A DNA stretch of 22,197 nt from a virus: positions 1 to 22,197 of the IMG/VR virus record IMGVR_UViG_3300027782_000397, one strand, 5' to 3'. The notes under the pieces were generated by a model that was given only the letters and a program-made list of their open reading frames with translations, did not search any database and was not told the DNA's origin. The position numbers and the translations under genes were made by a program. Below, in pieces: positions 4,776 to 22,197 of the stretch. How positions within the stretch are numbered: position 1 is the first letter of the stretch; every line of letters begins with the position of its first letter.

Positions 4776-5225
4776 ATGGTAAGTAAAAGAACAATAACAA
4801 GACCCGCTAACACTACAGCTTATTCAATAGGCGATGTATTATCAGGAGATGGTATAGTAATACCGATAACAATAGATGCTGACTTGGGTAATTCAGTAAT
4901 TGTAAACAGTTCGATAATAAGTTCTAATCCAGCTTCAACACCTTCTTTGACTTTGAATTTTTATTCAGAATCATTTACAGTTGCTGCTGACAATGCTGCT
5001 TTCGTTCCGACTGCTGCAAATCAAAAGAACTTTTTAGGTAAAATAAAACATACTAACTGGGCGGCAACAACTAATGAAAAAACCTCAACGAATGATATTA
5101 GCAAACCTATTTGTGTGGTACCTACTTTAAGTGCTGCTCATATTTTTTGTGTAGTAACTTTAGAAAGTGTTTACACTCCAACAAGTGCTGAACAAATTAC
5201 AATCGTTTTAAACATAGTTCAATAA
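4776..5225 (+). CDS. Putative virion structural protein (beta-rich, Ser/Thr-rich)
   Basis: This 149-residue protein begins MVSKRTITRPANTTAYSIGDVLS. The TRPANTTAY..GDV opening is a pattern I know from proteins of unrelated phages, where the protein is near head or tail genes and of unknown exact role. The rest alternates short hydrophobic strands with Ser/Thr/Asn turns (PSLTLNFYSESFTVAADNAAF, then NFLGKI), consistent with a beta-sandwich. It is followed without a gap by the glycine-rich gene (TAATG, one shared base), so the two are translationally coupled. A head fibre, decoration or tail protein are all possible. Confidence 0.55.
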   Translation: MVSKRTITRPANTTAYSIGDVLSGDGIVIPITIDADLGNSVIVNSSIISSNPASTPSLTLNFYSESFTVAADNAAFVPTAANQKNFLGKIKHTNWAATTNEKTSTNDISKPICVVPTLSAAHIFCVVTLESVYTPTSAEQITIVLNIVQ

Positions 5226-6082
5226 TGAATATCAGTAAGTTTAATAGTTTTTATTATGGAGCTCCTCCATTTACGGTTGCTACAGGTGGAACTATAACTA
5301 CCGATGGGGATTATAAAATACATACTTTTTTATCAAGTGATAATTTTGTAGTTACAACTTTAGGTGCTGCACCTTTTAATGTAGTTGAATATTTAGTTGT
5401 TGCTGGTGGTGGCGGTGGTGGTGGTGAAGTTTCAACTGGTGGTGGAGCTGGTGGAGCTGGAGCAGGTGGTTTATTAACAGCATCAGGATTATCAATAGCA
5501 GTTCAAAGTTATGCAGTTGTTGTTGGTAGTGGTGGAGCTGGAGCTGTTAATAGAGGAGTATCAGTAAGTGGTAATAATTCATCTTTTAATTCAATAGTTT
5601 CTACAGGTGGTGGTCGTGGAGGAGTTCCTTCAACAACCGCTGCAGCTACTGGAGGAAGTGGTGGTGGAGGTTCTTGGTCTGGAACTACAGCTGGAGCTTT
5701 AGGAATAGTTGGACAAGGTAAAAATGGAGCTAATGGTGGAAGTGTTAATGCTGGAGGTGGTGGTGGTGGAGCTGGAACTAATGGTTTTGCAACTATTGGT
5801 ACTGGAGTTGGTGGTGCGGGCGGTACTGGTTTATCTAATTCAATAAGTGGAGGTGCTGTTTTTTATGCTGGAGGCGGTGCTGGTGGTTCTTGGAATACAA
5901 TTTTATTTGGAGTTGGTGGCAATGGTGGTGGTGGTAACGGAGGATTTCTAAATTCAATGAATGGAATTAGTGGAGTTGCAAATACAGGCGGTGGCGGTGG
6001 CGGTGGAACTGGTTCGGGTGGTAATGCAACGGGTGGTACTGGTGGAAGTGGAATAGTAATAATAAAATATAAATTTAAATAA
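5225..6082 (+). CDS. Glycine-rich tail fibre tip / adhesin-like protein
   Basis: This 285-residue protein has a short beta-rich head (residues 1-55, with ITTDGDYKIHTFLSSDNFVV, then NVVEYLVVAGG) and about 220 residues of dense Gly runs separated by short Ser/Thr/Ala/Asn segments, ending GGSGIVIIKYKFK. This architecture is the Gly-rich domain found on phage tail-fibre adhesins; in T4-like phage S16 gp38 such runs pack as polyglycine-II helices and the loops between them bind the host surface. The variable loops here would be the receptor-contact sites, which is inference. GGT and GGA repeats make the DNA locally repetitive and prone to slippage. The stop codon shares bases with the next start (TAATG). 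Confidence 0.7.
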   Translation: MNISKFNSFYYGAPPFTVATGGTITTDGDYKIHTFLSSDNFVVTTLGAAPFNVVEYLVVAGGGGGGGEVSTGGGAGGAGAGGLLTASGLSIAVQSYAVVVGSGGAGAVNRGVSVSGNNSSFNSIVSTGGGRGGVPSTTAAATGGSGGGGSWSGTTAGALGIVGQGKNGANGGSVNAGGGGGGAGTNGFATIGTGVGGAGGTGLSNSISGGAVFYAGGGAGGSWNTILFGVGGNGGGGNGGFLNSMNGISGVANTGGGGGGGTGSGGNATGGTGGSGIVIIKYKFK

Positions 6083-6444
6083 TGGCAAACTTTGCACTTA
6101 TAAAAGATAGTATTGTGATAGCTGTAATCGTTATTGATAATGAAGTTATTACTAACAATGGAATTGAGGTTGAACAATTAGGTATTGATTTTATAGATTC
6201 TTTAAATATTAAAAGTATTTATGATTACGATTTGATAAAACAAACATCTTATAATTCTAATTTTAGAAATACTTACGCTGGAATAGGATTTACTTATGAT
6301 AGTATCAATGATGTTTTTATATCACCTAAGCCATACGAAGATTGGATTTTAGTAAAATATAAATGGGAAGCACCAATACCTTATCCTAGCGATAATAAAT
6401 TGTATTCGTGGAATAATAATAAATGGAACTTAATTAATATATGA
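6082..6444 (+). CDS. Tail-fibre-associated protein of marine-phage type
   Basis: This is a 120-residue protein. The first 60 residues form a beta/alpha unit (ALIKDSIVIAVIVIDNEVI). The second half holds NTYAGIGFTYDSINDVFISP, KPYEDWIL, WEAPIPYPSDNKLYSW and NNNKWN. The phrases YAGIG.TYD, F..PKPY..W and WEAP..YP are a signature I know from small proteins of cyanophages and other marine phages, usually near tail-fibre genes. Its job there is not well fixed; chaperone or fibre component are the usual guesses. It lies right after the glycine-rich adhesin gene and shares four bases (ATGA) with the next gene. Confidence 0.65.
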   Translation: MANFALIKDSIVIAVIVIDNEVITNNGIEVEQLGIDFIDSLNIKSIYDYDLIKQTSYNSNFRNTYAGIGFTYDSINDVFISPKPYEDWILVKYKWEAPIPYPSDNKLYSWNNNKWNLINI

Positions 6445-6635
6445 CACAATTTGACATTCTTTTATGGCTGGTCTCGGGGTTGATAGCCATCTTATCTTTT
6501 ATCGGAGCATTAGGGGTTAATGCTTTGATGAAGATGAGCAAAGACCTTAACGAAATTAAAACTATGGTTATGGTCCAGGATGTTAAGCACGATAGTTTAG
6601 AACGCAGAGTTGAACAATTAGAACATAAGAAATGA
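6441..6635 (+). CDS. Small membrane protein with coiled coil, lysis-cassette start
   Basis: This 64-residue protein has one hydrophobic segment (about residues 5-29, with LLWLVSGLIAILSFIGALGV) followed by a charged helix with heptads ending LERRVEQLEHKK. It overlaps both neighbours by ATGA. Single-TM proteins with cytoplasmic or periplasmic coiled coils at the start of lysis cassettes are often class III holins or holin regulators; this one could also be a membrane anchor. I see no motif that decides. Confidence 0.6.
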   Translation: MTQFDILLWLVSGLIAILSFIGALGVNALMKMSKDLNEIKTMVMVQDVKHDSLERRVEQLEHKK

Positions 6636-7180
6636 AAAAATATAGCATCGAAGAAATAAAAGCACAATATTTATTAAACAAATACAAATGGTTTAGTGAT
6701 ATTAATTTTGTTGGCATACGTTCAAATGCTGATTTGCCTAATGTATTCGATGACTTATTCGGAGTAATTAATAATGATAAAATAGAATGGTTTACTTGTA
6801 CTACTAATCCTGGAGTTCATTGGTTAAAAAACTTATTAAATCCAAAAGGTGCAGCATTACTAAGACCTAGTCAATACGTTGATACTTGGAAAATAGGAAT
6901 GCATCAAGGCAAGTATGAAGCGTTTTGTCAAGTAAAGCCAGTAACTGTTTATCGTGATAAAAACTTAAATGATAAAGCAGAAGAAAATCAAACTTTAGAT
7001 ACGGGATTATTTGGTATCAATATACACAGGGCAAACGAAAAATCAATATCTACAATAATAGATAAATGGAGTGCTGGATGTCAAGTTCTGAATAATCCCG
7101 CAGACTTTAAAAAGATTTTAACTTTAGCAAAGGAATCAAAGAAATTAAACTTTACTTATACACTTTTAAAAGAATTTTAA
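6632..7180 (+). CDS. Putative L,D-transpeptidase-like (YkuD-type) cell-wall enzyme
   Basis: This 182-residue protein shows the conserved strings NPGVHWLKNLL, LLRPSQYVDTWKIGMHQGKY, FGINIHRA and KWSAGCQV. The spacing of His132 (NIHR) and the SAGCQV block with Cys150 recalls the H...S/THGC catalytic region of YkuD L,D-transpeptidases, where Cys is the nucleophile. In a phage such an enzyme could act on peptidoglycan crosslinks or peptide stems during lysis or entry. The protein family itself is one I have seen in Bacteroidota phages next to lysis genes. There is no signal peptide. The cassette thus carries two possible wall enzymes, this one and the lysozyme at 7423. The enzymatic reading is inference from the motif; a non-catalytic role cannot be excluded. 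Confidence 0.55.
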   Translation: MKKYSIEEIKAQYLLNKYKWFSDINFVGIRSNADLPNVFDDLFGVINNDKIEWFTCTTNPGVHWLKNLLNPKGAALLRPSQYVDTWKIGMHQGKYEAFCQVKPVTVYRDKNLNDKAEENQTLDTGLFGINIHRANEKSISTIIDKWSAGCQVLNNPADFKKILTLAKESKKLNFTYTLLKEF

Positions 7181-7181
7181 A

Positions 7182-7436
7182 ATGGACCAGGTTTCTATTA
7201 TTGGCATAGTAGTCGCCTTAATAGGCGTACTTAAAGGAAAGGATGTTTGGGATTATTTCAAAAGTAGAAATGAACTAAAAGCTTCAGGTAATAACAAAGT
7301 AATTACAATTTACGAAGAACAAATTAACGAACTTAAAAAGAGAATAGAATTATTGGAGCAACGAATTGAAATGTTAATCGAGAAATTACAAAGTAAGATA
7401 ACTAAAAGTCGAGGTAAGAAAAATGAAAATAACTAA
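7182..7436 (+). CDS. Small membrane-anchored coiled-coil protein
   Basis: This 84-residue protein has a short hydrophobic N-terminus (VSIIGIVVALIGVL, residues 4-17), then KGKDVWDYFKSR, then a long charged helix with clear Leu/Ile heptads (EEQINELKKRIELLEQRIEML) and a Lys-rich tail. The start is one base after the previous stop. It overlaps the lysozyme start by 14 bases. A holin accessory, antiholin or membrane tether is possible, but nothing in the sequence fixes the role. Confidence 0.6.
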   Translation: MDQVSIIGIVVALIGVLKGKDVWDYFKSRNELKASGNNKVITIYEEQINELKKRIELLEQRIEMLIEKLQSKITKSRGKKNENN

Positions 7437-7881
7437 AACAGGAACTAAGGGATTAGACCTTATAAAGAAATTTGAAGGGTTTAGATCATTGCCTTATTTA
7501 TGCCCCGCCAAAGTGCCTACAATTGGATTTGGAGCAACTTACTATCCTAATGGTAGCAAAGTAACAATGAATGATAAACCGATAACTGAAGCGGTTGCAA
7601 CTGAGTTATTAGCCAGTATGATAGTAGGTTATGAAAAATCGGTGGATTCATTTTGTAGGGATGACATTAATCAAAATCAATTTGATGCACTTGTTAGTTT
7701 TTGTTATAACTTAGGATCGGGAAATTTAAAGATATCGGGGTTGTTAAAAAAAGTAAATACTAATCCAAATGATGAAACTATTAAAGCTGAGTTTATGAAA
7801 TGGGTTAAAGCTGGAGGTAGAACTTTGCCAGGATTAGTTAAAAGAAGAGAAGCGGAATCAACATTATACTTTACAAAATGA
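7423..7881 (+). CDS. Endolysin, T4-type lysozyme (GH24)
   Basis: This 152-residue muramidase would cleave the MurNAc-GlcNAc bond of peptidoglycan at lysis. The KKFEGFR block places the catalytic Glu at residue 18, and PTIGFGATY gives the Thr of the active site at residue 33. The usual Asp of the E-D-T triad is replaced by Cys27 in LPYLCPAKVPTIG, a substitution known from other phage lysozymes and tolerated in T4 lysozyme (D20C stays active). Later blocks, INQNQFDALVSFCYNLGSG and GLVKRREAE, are classical for the family. No signal-arrest-release segment or signal peptide is visible, so release should depend on a holin. It overlaps the genes on both sides. Confidence 0.92.
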   Translation: MKITKTGTKGLDLIKKFEGFRSLPYLCPAKVPTIGFGATYYPNGSKVTMNDKPITEAVATELLASMIVGYEKSVDSFCRDDINQNQFDALVSFCYNLGSGNLKISGLLKKVNTNPNDETIKAEFMKWVKAGGRTLPGLVKRREAESTLYFTK

Positions 7882-8102
7882 AAAACTTTATAAAACAAAT
7901 ATTACAAGATGAAAGCGGTTGCGTATCTAGTAAAAGAGTATGCGGTATAATATGCACTATTATGCTTTGTGCTACTTTATTTGCTAATCAATTCACACCC
8001 GAACACATTAAGCCATCGGACACCTTAGTACAATGTGTAACTGCATTAGCTTTTGGTTGTTTAGGATTAACTACTGTTGATAAATTTAGCACAAAGAAAT
8101 GA
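7878..8102 (+). CDS. Putative holin, two membrane segments
   Basis: This 74-residue protein is coupled to the lysozyme by ATGA. It has a basic N-terminus, DESGCVSSKRVCG, and two hydrophobic segments (about residues 22-37 and 51-67), ending in a Lys-rich tail (KFSTKK). This fits a class II holin, with both termini cytoplasmic. I know the SSKR..G.I opening from small membrane proteins beside lysozyme genes in Bacteroidota phages. The position right after an endolysin lacking its own export signal strengthens the call. The other small membrane proteins of the cassette are competing candidates. Confidence 0.65.
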   Translation: MKNFIKQILQDESGCVSSKRVCGIICTIMLCATLFANQFTPEHIKPSDTLVQCVTALAFGCLGLTTVDKFSTKK

Positions 8103-8188
8103 AAAAAATAAAAGAGAATAAAACGTTAATAATATTTATTGTATCAATAATTTTATGGGTTTGTTTTTATTCCTATTATGTTAGATAA
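8099..8188 (+). CDS. 29-residue single-span membrane peptide
   Basis: An ATGA overlap with the holin stop opens a 29-codon frame: a Lys-rich start (MKKIKENKT) and one hydrophobic helix (LIIFIVSIILWVCFYSYYV). Its stop overlaps the next start by 11 bases, so it is coupled on both sides and fills what would otherwise be a 75-base gap. Size, charge pattern and position fit a small holin, antiholin or lysis regulator. Coupling and composition make it likely to be real; no homologous family is known to me. Confidence 0.6.
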   Translation: MKKIKENKTLIIFIVSIILWVCFYSYYVR

Positions 8189-8543
8189 TATACCTGATAA
8201 CTTTATCATGTCCAATAAATCGATTATTTTATGCTTGATAACATTATGTGTTCATTTATTGATATTGAAGTTTTTATATTCTCCTTACAATGAATTAGGA
8301 ATAATACAAAATTATAGAATAGAAATTGATAGTTTGAATAAAATAAATGATAGTTTGTATTCAGAGATTAAGTATCACAATATTGAAATCGAGCATTACG
8401 AACAGGAGATAAGTTATTTAGGCCACCAAAAACAAACAGTAATAATAAAATATAAAACCAAAGTAAATGAAATTGATTCACTTAATAATAATAACCTTGT
8501 TGCTGAATTTGACAGCATATTCTCAAAGTTTAATTATAAATAA
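8178..8543 (+). CDS. Inner-membrane spanin-like protein (TM plus periplasmic coiled coil)
   Basis: This 121-residue protein has one N-terminal membrane segment (about residues 15-35, SIILCLITLCVHLLILKFL), then a long helical region with repeating Ile/Leu heptads (IDSLNKINDSLYSEIKYHNIEIEH), ending in a short polar tail. This is the Rz (i-spanin) layout. A second start at the ATG of 8208 would shorten it by 10 residues without losing the membrane segment. The following gene begins inside it in another frame, with 77 shared bases, as in Rz/Rz1 pairs. Function is inferred from architecture and position only; no sequence motif exists for the group. Confidence 0.6.
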   Translation: MLDNIPDNFIMSNKSIILCLITLCVHLLILKFLYSPYNELGIIQNYRIEIDSLNKINDSLYSEIKYHNIEIEHYEQEISYLGHQKQTVIIKYKTKVNEIDSLNNNNLVAEFDSIFSKFNYK

Positions 8544-8874
8544 TAAAGATACTTTAATTTGTTTTAGCTCCGATAAAGCAAAGTTCTTAGCAAAGCAATA
8601 TCATAAAGCTGAAGCATATTACTTATCAGATTCATTATGCCAGCAACAAGTTATCTTAAAAGGTAACCAGGTTAAACTTTATAAAAAGAATGAAGATAAG
8701 TTACAAAGTATTATCGGAAACCAAGTAACTATAATCAAGTTTAAAGACGAAGAAAACAAATCACTAACTATTCAAATGAAAGGTTTAAACCTGGAGGTTA
8801 AAAAACAAAAGCGGTTAAAAGGAATCAGTATTATTTTTGGAGTATCCTGTTTAGTTTTTGCTTTAGTCAAGTAG
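8467..8874 (+). CDS. Exported protein with C-terminal membrane segment, spanin-partner candidate
   Basis: This 135-residue protein has a signal-peptide-like N-terminus (MKLIHLIIITLLLNLTAYSQ, likely cleavage after Gln20), a charged helical middle with Lys/Gln, and a C-terminal hydrophobic segment (GISIIFGVSCLVFALV). It starts within the preceding spanin-like gene, in another frame. There is no Cys after the signal peptide, so it is not an obvious outer-membrane lipoprotein; with signal plus C-terminal anchor it looks like a unimolecular spanin lacking the lipobox. It could also be an ordinary periplasmic protein anchored in the inner membrane. It is the last gene of the rightward block; its TAG is directly followed by the stop of the opposing gene. 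Confidence 0.6.
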   Translation: MKLIHLIIITLLLNLTAYSQSLIINNKDTLICFSSDKAKFLAKQYHKAEAYYLSDSLCQQQVILKGNQVKLYKKNEDKLQSIIGNQVTIIKFKDEENKSLTIQMKGLNLEVKKQKRLKGISIIFGVSCLVFALVK

Positions 8875-21394: not shown

Positions 21395-21844
21395 ATGCCT
21401 AAAAAATATATAGACACACCTGAAGAACTTTGGACCATGTTTCAAGAATACCTAAACTCACTAGAAGTATTAGAAATGGAAGTACCTCACGTTAAACTAG
21501 GCACAGTTAAAATTCATACCCAAGAACCTCCAACTATGGAAGGTTTTAAATACTTCGGCTCTAACTACTTTGAAATCAAAGGTAAAGACAACGTTACAAT
21601 TAAACACTATATTGATAATTCTAATAATTCTTATGATGACTATTGTACAATCGTTACACGCATAAAGGACTATATTTATAAACATAACTTTAGTAGGGCA
21701 GCAGTCGGAATATATAAAGAAAGTTTAATAGCCAAACAATTAGGATTAAGTGAAAAAATTATTCAAACCGTATTTACTGAACAACCATTATTCCCTGATA
21801 GACGAATTCCAAAATTAGATGTTTCTCAGAACCACAGCGATTGA
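21395..21844 (+). CDS. Terminase small subunit
   Basis: This 149-residue protein starts MPKKYIDTPEELWTMFQEYL, a helix typical of gp3-type DNA-packaging proteins; PPTMEGFKYFG in the middle and the helical FSRAAVGIYKESLIAKQLGL near the end support it. The small subunit recognises the packaging start site and controls the large subunit. It overlaps the large-subunit start by 26 bases, as usual for terminase pairs. An octamer TATCGGAC lies 14 bases before its start. Confidence 0.75.
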   Translation: MPKKYIDTPEELWTMFQEYLNSLEVLEMEVPHVKLGTVKIHTQEPPTMEGFKYFGSNYFEIKGKDNVTIKHYIDNSNNSYDDYCTIVTRIKDYIYKHNFSRAAVGIYKESLIAKQLGLSEKIIQTVFTEQPLFPDRRIPKLDVSQNHSD

Positions 21845-22197
21845 TAAAATACTTGAATTAACTAAATTTGTCAAAGGCATTCAAGGAGGTACAAGTGCTG
21901 GTAAAACATTTGGTATATTACCTATTCTTATTGATGATGCTGCCGAATATCCACTAACCGAAACAAGTGTTGTTGCTGAATCTATTCCACATTTAAAGAG
22001 GGGTGCAATCAAAGACTTTAAAAAGATAATGGTAGAAACCAAACGTTGGCAAGATGATAGGTGGAATGGAACTGACTTTAAATATACATTTGCTAATCAA
22101 TCGGTTATTGAGTTCTTTAGTGCAGATAGTGATTCTAAACTAAGGGGTGCAAGACGTGATTATCTATACATGAATGAGTGCAATAATATGACCTTGC
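21819..22197 (+). CDS. Terminase large subunit, N-terminal part (3' truncated by window edge)
   Basis: The first 126 codons are visible, no stop inside the window. The start ATG at 21819 lies within the small-subunit gene in another frame. The ATPase Walker A is QGGTSAGKTFG (residues 22-32), and the strand YLYMNECNN near the window end fits the Walker B with its catalytic Glu (an NE rather than DE pair, as in many phage terminases). RWNGTDFKYTF and LRGARRDYLYMNE are typical for the large subunit of Bacteroidota phages. The protein pumps DNA into the prohead through the portal; the C-terminal nuclease domain must lie outside the window. Confidence 0.92.
   Translation, partial: MFLRTTAIDKILELTKFVKGIQGGTSAGKTFGILPILIDDAAEYPLTETSVVAESIPHLKRGAIKDFKKIMVETKRWQDDRWNGTDFKYTFANQSVIEFFSADSDSKLRGARRDYLYMNECNNMTL

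Follow-up and report, generated by a model that had tools for sequence, protein, structure and literature searches.

Two overlapping genes in the lysis region of a virus record of 22,197 bases (analysed over its whole length and called the window here) form a module that recurs in many divergent phage sequences. The product of the first gene, A, is predicted to be a type II inner-membrane protein that extends a coiled-coil rod into the periplasm, and that of the second, B, looks like a substrate of the Bacteroidetes SPase I (Q-rule) by its predicted signal peptide, not like a lipoprotein. On balance, we regard it as somewhat probable that A and B make up a two-component spanin-like complex that would carry out the last step of lysis with no lipid anchor, a reading suggested by a gene order, +1 overlap, cassette position, and layout of A that are those of overlapped two-component spanins. 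A preliminary description of this DNA had likened the overlap and order of the pair to Rz/Rz1, and the +1 frame, the place in the cassette, and the i-spanin-like A agree with it.

The lysis region lies on the + strand (Table 1), and scans of Pfam and PHROG gave no family match for its holin-like gene. Between that gene and A is an ORF of 29 aa with one membrane helix (P0003, 8099-8188, +), which overlaps the longer start of A; weighed as a third component, it returned nothing significant in family scans. The phrog_3000 protein is perhaps a second cell-wall enzyme of the cassette: an endolysin PHROG matches the lysozyme over its N-terminal part and the phrog_3000 protein over its C-terminal part, and the stretches FGINIHRAN and WSAGCQV, kept in 11 aligned relatives (alignment A4), presumably recall L,D-transpeptidase (YkuD) active sites. 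The host is probably a member of Bacteroidota, as supported by the Q-rule in B, a portal match to four Nonlabens phage records, and the titles of genome loci found through the neighbouring phrog_3000 gene.

Table 1. Features of the lysis region and of the A/B pair in the window
Feature	Position	Strand	Remarks
One-TM gene	6441-6635	+	5'-most of the lysis region
phrog_3000 gene	6632-7180	+	Lysis region
TM and coiled-coil-like gene	7182-7436	+	Lysis region
Endolysin, phage lysozyme	7423-7881	+	Pfam PF00959, E = 1.2e-39; phrog_7 endolysin, 3.7e-50
Two-TM holin-like gene	7878-8102	+	Named from layout and place; without family match
Gene A, 111 aa (121 aa from start 8178)	8208-8543	+	Predicted type II inner-membrane protein
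A TM helix, residues 2-23 (numbered from start 8208)	8211-8276	+	Hydropathy, AlphaFold2
A coiled-coil rod, residues 29-94	8292-8489	+	Heptads; AlphaFold2 pLDDT block means 84-97 over residues 31-90
A C-terminal motif DSIF	8511-8522	+	On the short C-terminal helix
Gene B, 135 aa	8467-8874	+	Predicted exported, without lipobox; SPase I-type signal peptide, then a helical rod and a hydrophobic helix at the C-terminus
B signal peptide, residues 1-19	8467-8523	+	Mature protein expected to start at Gln20 (codon 8524-8526)
B N-terminal beta-hairpin tip, residues 21-34, with Cys32	8527-8568	+	AlphaFold2, low confidence (pLDDT block means 53, 75)
B rod, helix, residues 35-116, with Cys58	8569-8814	+	AlphaFold2
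B C-terminal hydrophobic helix, residues 117-134, KKQKRLK just before	8815-8868	+	Hydropathy, AlphaFold2
Dual-coding overlap, 77 bases	8467-8543	+	B in the +1 frame of A

The two ORFs first reported, 8178-8543 (121 aa) and 8467-8874 (135 aa), overlapping by 77 bases in different frames, were recovered as such, with B in +1. The start of A is probably 8208 rather than 8178, since the open frame upstream of the 8208-equivalent codon is without ATG in 25 of 31 A relatives (12 of these 25 having a GTG or TTG there), and at that codon 28 of the relatives have ATG and three have GTG. Sequence and AlphaFold2 together give A an N-terminal TM, a 66-residue helical rod, and a short C-terminal helix; an i-spanin has an N-terminal TM and a periplasmic, often coiled-coil domain, and both appear in the sequence and predicted structure of A. 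The earlier view of A as a TM plus coiled-coil protein thus stands: its single, N-terminal membrane helix has a best 17-residue mean hydropathy of 2.65, the hydrophobic a/d fraction of its heptads is 0.78 against 0.52 in shuffles (P = 0.0005), and helices span residues 2-23, 29-94, and 97-109 in the AlphaFold2 monomer of the 111-aa form (mean pLDDT 85). Alignment A6 comprises 20 A proteins, and 12 of them have the C-terminal motif in the form DS[ILM][FW].

Gene B opens with the predicted signal peptide MKLIHLIIITLLLNLTAYS, followed by QS, an arrangement of signal peptide and then Gln at +1 that defines Q-rule SPase I substrates; mature B should therefore begin at Gln20. This Gln, directly after the signal peptide, is the sole invariant column across 21 aligned B proteins, and among 56 distinct B proteins a strict rule accepts 41, the remaining 15 reading SGQ (2) or YSQ (13) by eye. 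In Porphyromonas gingivalis, >60% of the proteins predicted to be cut by SPase I are reported to follow the Q-rule (PMC5837995), and phage proteins obeying it have been noted in Porphyromonas phages (PMC10367356). The only Cys residues of B in the window are 32, 58, and 128, none within a lipobox, in line with the lack of a lipobox Cys noted at the outset, and the rule-based search found no lipobox in the 56 distinct B proteins. Cys32 and Cys58 are kept in all 36 close relatives, and at least one B Cys in 12 of 15 representatives. The signal peptide and C-terminal hydrophobic segment of the preliminary description are both present by sequence, the latter as a helix in AlphaFold2, where the B monomer comprises a short hairpin (21-24/30-33) and one helix at 35-134 (mean pLDDT 75, pTM 0.27); heptad testing of B gave no significant pattern (P = 0.11). 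Residues preceding the C-terminal helix are more positive than the tail in 14 of 15 representatives, which reverses the positive-inside rule for a C-in helix and so contradicts simple inner-membrane insertion. The helix would either enter the membrane from the periplasmic side, reach the outer membrane, or differ in topology.

Related loci among viral contigs numbered 35 for A (best-segment identity 74-100%) and 36 for B (92-100%). Neither A (best PHROG E = 0.053; Pfam none) nor B (best PHROG E = 0.32, Pfam 0.15) of the window has a significant Pfam, PHROG, or NCBIfam match, the best NCBIfam for A, NF047693, reaching E = 0.0021 but scoring 18 bits where the cut-off is 270. At E up to 1, a set of 50,697 phage records holds no relative of B; a search of genome contigs gave none either, and when five B proteins were compared by tblastn with the phage collection, no convincing relative emerged. 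These searches agree with the early remark that Bacteroidota phage spanins are poorly described. One weak tblastn match of A in the phage collection, in a phage of Rossellomorea (E 0.09), was put down to the coiled coil. The PHROG matches of distant A and B proteins are weak, the best (E = 0.00031) to a family without a known function, and distant A proteins match Rz-like PHROGs weakly (E 0.01-0.3), with no such match for A of the window. In the spanin literature searched, which included that on Bacteroidetes phages and non-lipidated forms, we found no account of such pairs.

Synonymous divergence (pS) drops within the overlap in both frames and in two families, which indicates selection on both proteins, the signal peptide of B included. 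In 27 distinct sequences (from 32 complete ones including the window; of 36 loci, L028, which starts inside B, and L007, L012, L019, and L036, cut before A, were left out), A-frame pS falls from 0.332 before the overlap to 0.027 within it, and B-frame pS from 0.279 after the overlap to 0.062 within it. Outside the overlap, pN/pS is 0.067 for B and 0.29 for A. The fall is less steep in another, divergent family, whose 20 pairs overlap by 116 bases, from 0.578 to 0.283 in the A frame and from 0.462 to 0.179 in the B frame.

Recurrence was assessed at loci gathered around the neighbouring phrog_3000 and holin-like genes (one list being the best 80 of 589 loci), with a topology-only scan for an ORF hydrophobic at both ends that is preceded by an N-terminal-TM ORF ending near or inside it, a rule open to the other frame and to gaps of up to 30 bases. 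A first scan, of 113 loci, found 45 distinct pairs, every one of them on the + strand and none on the other, and the scan of viral loci gave 56 pairs, distinct by their last 60 residues, on the strand of the query gene and none on the other; because loci were sampled via shared neighbour genes, these counts are not of independent events. B is in the +1 frame in all 56, with overlaps of 77-185 bases. A scan based on Gln returned 45 pairs, three without a C-terminal TM, of which L177 and L181 are a holin-like gene coupled to A and the remaining one is an additional pair of L117. Six Q-type B ORFs in the 113 loci, first scored as lacking A, all have a +1 overlapping ORF: four overlap by 95-140 bases (L229 among them, without the TM part), and for two near an edge on the opposite strand the longer sequence contains a TM-bearing ORF with +1 overlaps of 113 and 122 bases. 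By BLAST, the B proteins fall into five mutually unlinked groups (33, 17, 3, 3, and 1), two further small groups are not of the window type, and 15 representatives remain at low 3-mer similarity. A two-TM gene stands immediately before A in 41 of 45 distinct pairs.

Gene order, +1 register, and cassette position are shared with two-component spanins, overlapped in P2 LysB/LysC and embedded in lambda Rz/Rz1, as are a first protein with an N-terminal TM and coiled coil and an exported second one (PMC6139136). Genes of two-component spanins are embedded, overlapped, or closely separated, and those of A and B overlap. The +1 register alone proves nothing, since the available text of the 2018 spanin survey counts 116 cases in -1 and reports no significant frame bias (PMC6139136). 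The same text gives at least one periplasmic Cys in 507 of 528 two-component pairs, the commonest combination being none in the periplasmic part of the i-spanin and two in its partner (Kongari 2018, PMC6139136), which is that of A (none) and B (Cys32 and Cys58). The second proteins differ: where two-component spanins have a lipobox, the signal peptide of B is of the SPase I (Q-rule) type, and B ends in a hydrophobic helix; it is by definition neither an o-spanin, which is an outer-membrane lipoprotein with a lipobox Cys, nor a u-spanin, given its C-terminal helix, absent lipobox, and two periplasmic Cys (0 of 58 u-spanins having a periplasmic Cys in the survey as available; Kongari 2018, PMC6139136). 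With T1 gp11, a unimolecular spanin, B shares an N-terminal export signal and a C-terminal hydrophobic helix in one protein; unlike B, T1 gp11 is a lipoprotein (LSGC) that needs no partner gene and lacks periplasmic Cys, and its positive charges follow the TM (tail RKHEKKEA), whereas those of B precede the C-terminal helix. The earlier suggestion that B is laid out as a unimolecular spanin lacking its lipid anchor thus finds no support, in view of the alpha-helical rod, the two periplasmic Cys, the overlapping partner gene, and charges opposite to those of T1 gp11. A remark of Kongari opens the i-spanin class, but not the o-spanin class, to type I proteins (PMC6139136), and so provides no outer-membrane attachment for B.

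Pair variants occur in two of 13 cultured Bacteroidota phages, Croceibacter phage P2559S and Cellulophaga phage phi39:1, and the arrangement is absent in the other 11. The P2559S pair (27300-27674 / 27508-28065, +1 overlap of 167 bases) directly follows the endolysin, and its B is publicly annotated only as the truncated gp30 (27826-28065), the longer frame with a signal peptide having been missed; the phi39:1 pair (21494-21793 / 21711-21995) overlaps by 83 bases in +1, with no endolysin annotated adjacent. Both resemble the window in the +1 overlap, N-TM first protein, Q-rule second protein, and lack of a lipobox, but differ in B, which has no C-terminal TM in P2559S, where the end (...LSFAIW) is beta-rich in look by eye, and no C-terminal membrane helix in phi39:1. 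P2559S also has a lipoprotein ORF at 29131-29478, 1.1 kb downstream of its pair. In three relatives of 33-35 kb, possibly partial and each read as two pieces, no ORF of at least 40 aa with a canonical lipobox was found on either strand, and the available sequence of these phages thus holds no classical o-spanin or u-spanin; a similar detector found lipoprotein ORFs in 9 of the 13 isolates. Mutual exclusion of pair and lipoprotein was considered and dropped as not significant (2 of 41 pair loci vs 4 of 45 others, P = 0.68), the two loci with both being kept in the count with spurious-looking ORFs of 45 and 54 aa.

Around the phrog_3000 gene in bacterial genomes, the best 80 of 125 loci (~66 with Bacteroidota titles) held no window-type pair. 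The topology scan of these 80 gave four other-frame matches (two a holin-like gene then one long gene, two - strand noise), and thus yields false ones; the Q-based scan of the same best 80 of 125 gave two more, each a holin-like gene then one long gene. MaF61, a distant holin match, lacks the pair in the 7.2 kb examined, and in L158, where the holin-like gene is closer (83%) than in L159-L169, the pair is missing and no clear replacement comes immediately after that gene. Eleven loci carry a holin-like protein 67-69% identical, and in the five inspected (L159-L162 and L164) the slot is taken by a single gene whose product starts with a TM and looks, by eye, beta-rich at its C-terminus. In Chitinophagaceae/Chitinophagales loci (L272, L292, L281, and L282), one gene hydrophobic at both ends follows the holin-like gene; those of L272 (6934-7584) and L292 (6957-7616), both Chitinophagaceae, share the slot and the membrane helices at both ends with A/B, but are single genes with no Q-rule cleavage site detected. 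Lipoproteins with the lipobox LSSC lie in the cassette region of L094 (4826-5209), L096 (2530-2913), L099 (3606-3968), and L101 (4826-5188). The last of these genes, which stands immediately ahead of the holin-like gene, shares 4 bases with a preceding TM and coil gene, and the two look like the canonical two-component spanin of a related phage. We infer that the beta-rich single gene, the hydrophobic-ended gene, and the lipoprotein are alternative fillings of one functional slot.

In the spanin-like complex that we favor, the rods of A and B (~10 and ~12 nm) would pair in the periplasm, and the conserved Cys of B may form disulfides. Once the endolysin had removed the cell wall, the A-B complex would collapse, and the inner and outer membranes would be joined or disrupted. 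The C-terminal helix of B would replace the membrane role of the Rz1 lipid, lying in the inner membrane (the default Sec outcome) or extending to the outer membrane. The rods would extend ~12 nm from the inner membrane if they lay side by side, and ~22 nm if placed end to end; were A and B both in the inner membrane, nothing found here would supply an outer-membrane anchor. Electrostatic complementarity of A and B, hinted at by the charges in the window, was rejected, with opposite charge in only 3 of 15 representatives. A bolder version, which we put forward tentatively and rate as rather doubtful, is that lipid-free membrane-disrupting machines are widespread in Bacteroidota phages, with B as a C-terminally anchored alpha-helical fusogen processed by signal peptidase and A holding the inner membrane. 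The helix of B, with its positive flank first and almost no tail, would then attach to the outer membrane or insert from the periplasmic side. If true, this would be an alpha-helical, non-lipid bridge of two membranes and would fill part of the gap of spanin-less phages.

Periplasmic antiholins can contain Cys, as B does, and A and B could both be anchored in the inner membrane with periplasmic rods, after a holin-like gene. Yet we think it unlikely that they are lysis-timing regulators that sense the envelope and restrain or trigger the holin in the manner of T4 RI-type antiholins: no visible outer-membrane function would be left, there being no lipobox ORF in three contigs, and we know of no regulator that is a +1 overlapping pair with an i-spanin layout. 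An uncleaved signal peptide would make B a two-helix inner-membrane hairpin, forming with A an auxiliary holin-like or scaffold complex of the inner membrane only, and the single genes of L272, L292, L281, and L282, with a helix at each end round a long hydrophilic part, do resemble an A-B fusion; the sole invariant column of B is nonetheless the Q-rule cleavage residue, unexplained without cleavage, and we hold such a hairpin to be quite unlikely.

Q-rule proteins of Porphyromonas phages have been suggested as potential outer-membrane modifiers (PMC10367356), which speaks for A and B as envelope-modifying or superinfection-exclusion proteins merely located in the cassette. Their fixed pairing and overlap, and a two-TM gene ahead of 41 of 45 pairs, make this distinctly unlikely. 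Unusual lipoboxes such as AWAC have also been described (Kongari 2018, PMC6139136), and one B family has a Cys inside its signal peptide (EPCTIYSQ), as an ordinary Rz/Rz1 pair with a non-canonical lipobox or a mis-called start might have. Against that stand the lipobox count of 0 of 56 by rule, with the Q position constant instead, and the next in-frame ATG of B in the window, which comes only from codon 104 on; we judge an ordinary Rz/Rz1 most improbable.

Unimolecular spanins have been reported in flavophages or Bacteroidetes phages (PMC8776804, PMC12596118), and the accessible text of a 2025 survey names them the exclusive type in Bacteroidetes phages, having dropped any o-spanin candidate that lacked a lipobox and any u-spanin candidate that lacked a lipobox or TM (PMC12596118). 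P2559S, P2559Y, and B124-14 are listed as spanin-less in the 2018 survey, whose authors place other topologies and anchors of such kind outside their criteria (PMC6139136, as available). Pairs of the A/B type are invisible to spanin finders because a lipobox is required, and their design may explain some phages without recognised genes for bursting the outer membrane. As a candidate for lipoprotein-free disruption of the outer membrane, the module is concrete and testable, and it provides a simple search rule, namely, a TM and coiled-coil gene, then an ORF that overlaps it in +1 and begins with a Q-rule signal peptide.

Two minor observations concern other proteins of these lysis regions. Products of L160 (4356-4886), L159 (4619-5209), and P2559Y (L250; 22998-23621) have an N-terminal TM, a Cys soon after it, and a C-terminus beta-rich by eye, and are candidates to bridge the inner and outer membranes via a beta-type anchor. 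Upstream of the holin-like gene on one pair-bearing contig, L117, is a second +1 overlapping couple of a TM gene and a Q-rule gene (4996-5289 / 5216-5899, 74-base overlap), without a C-terminal TM.
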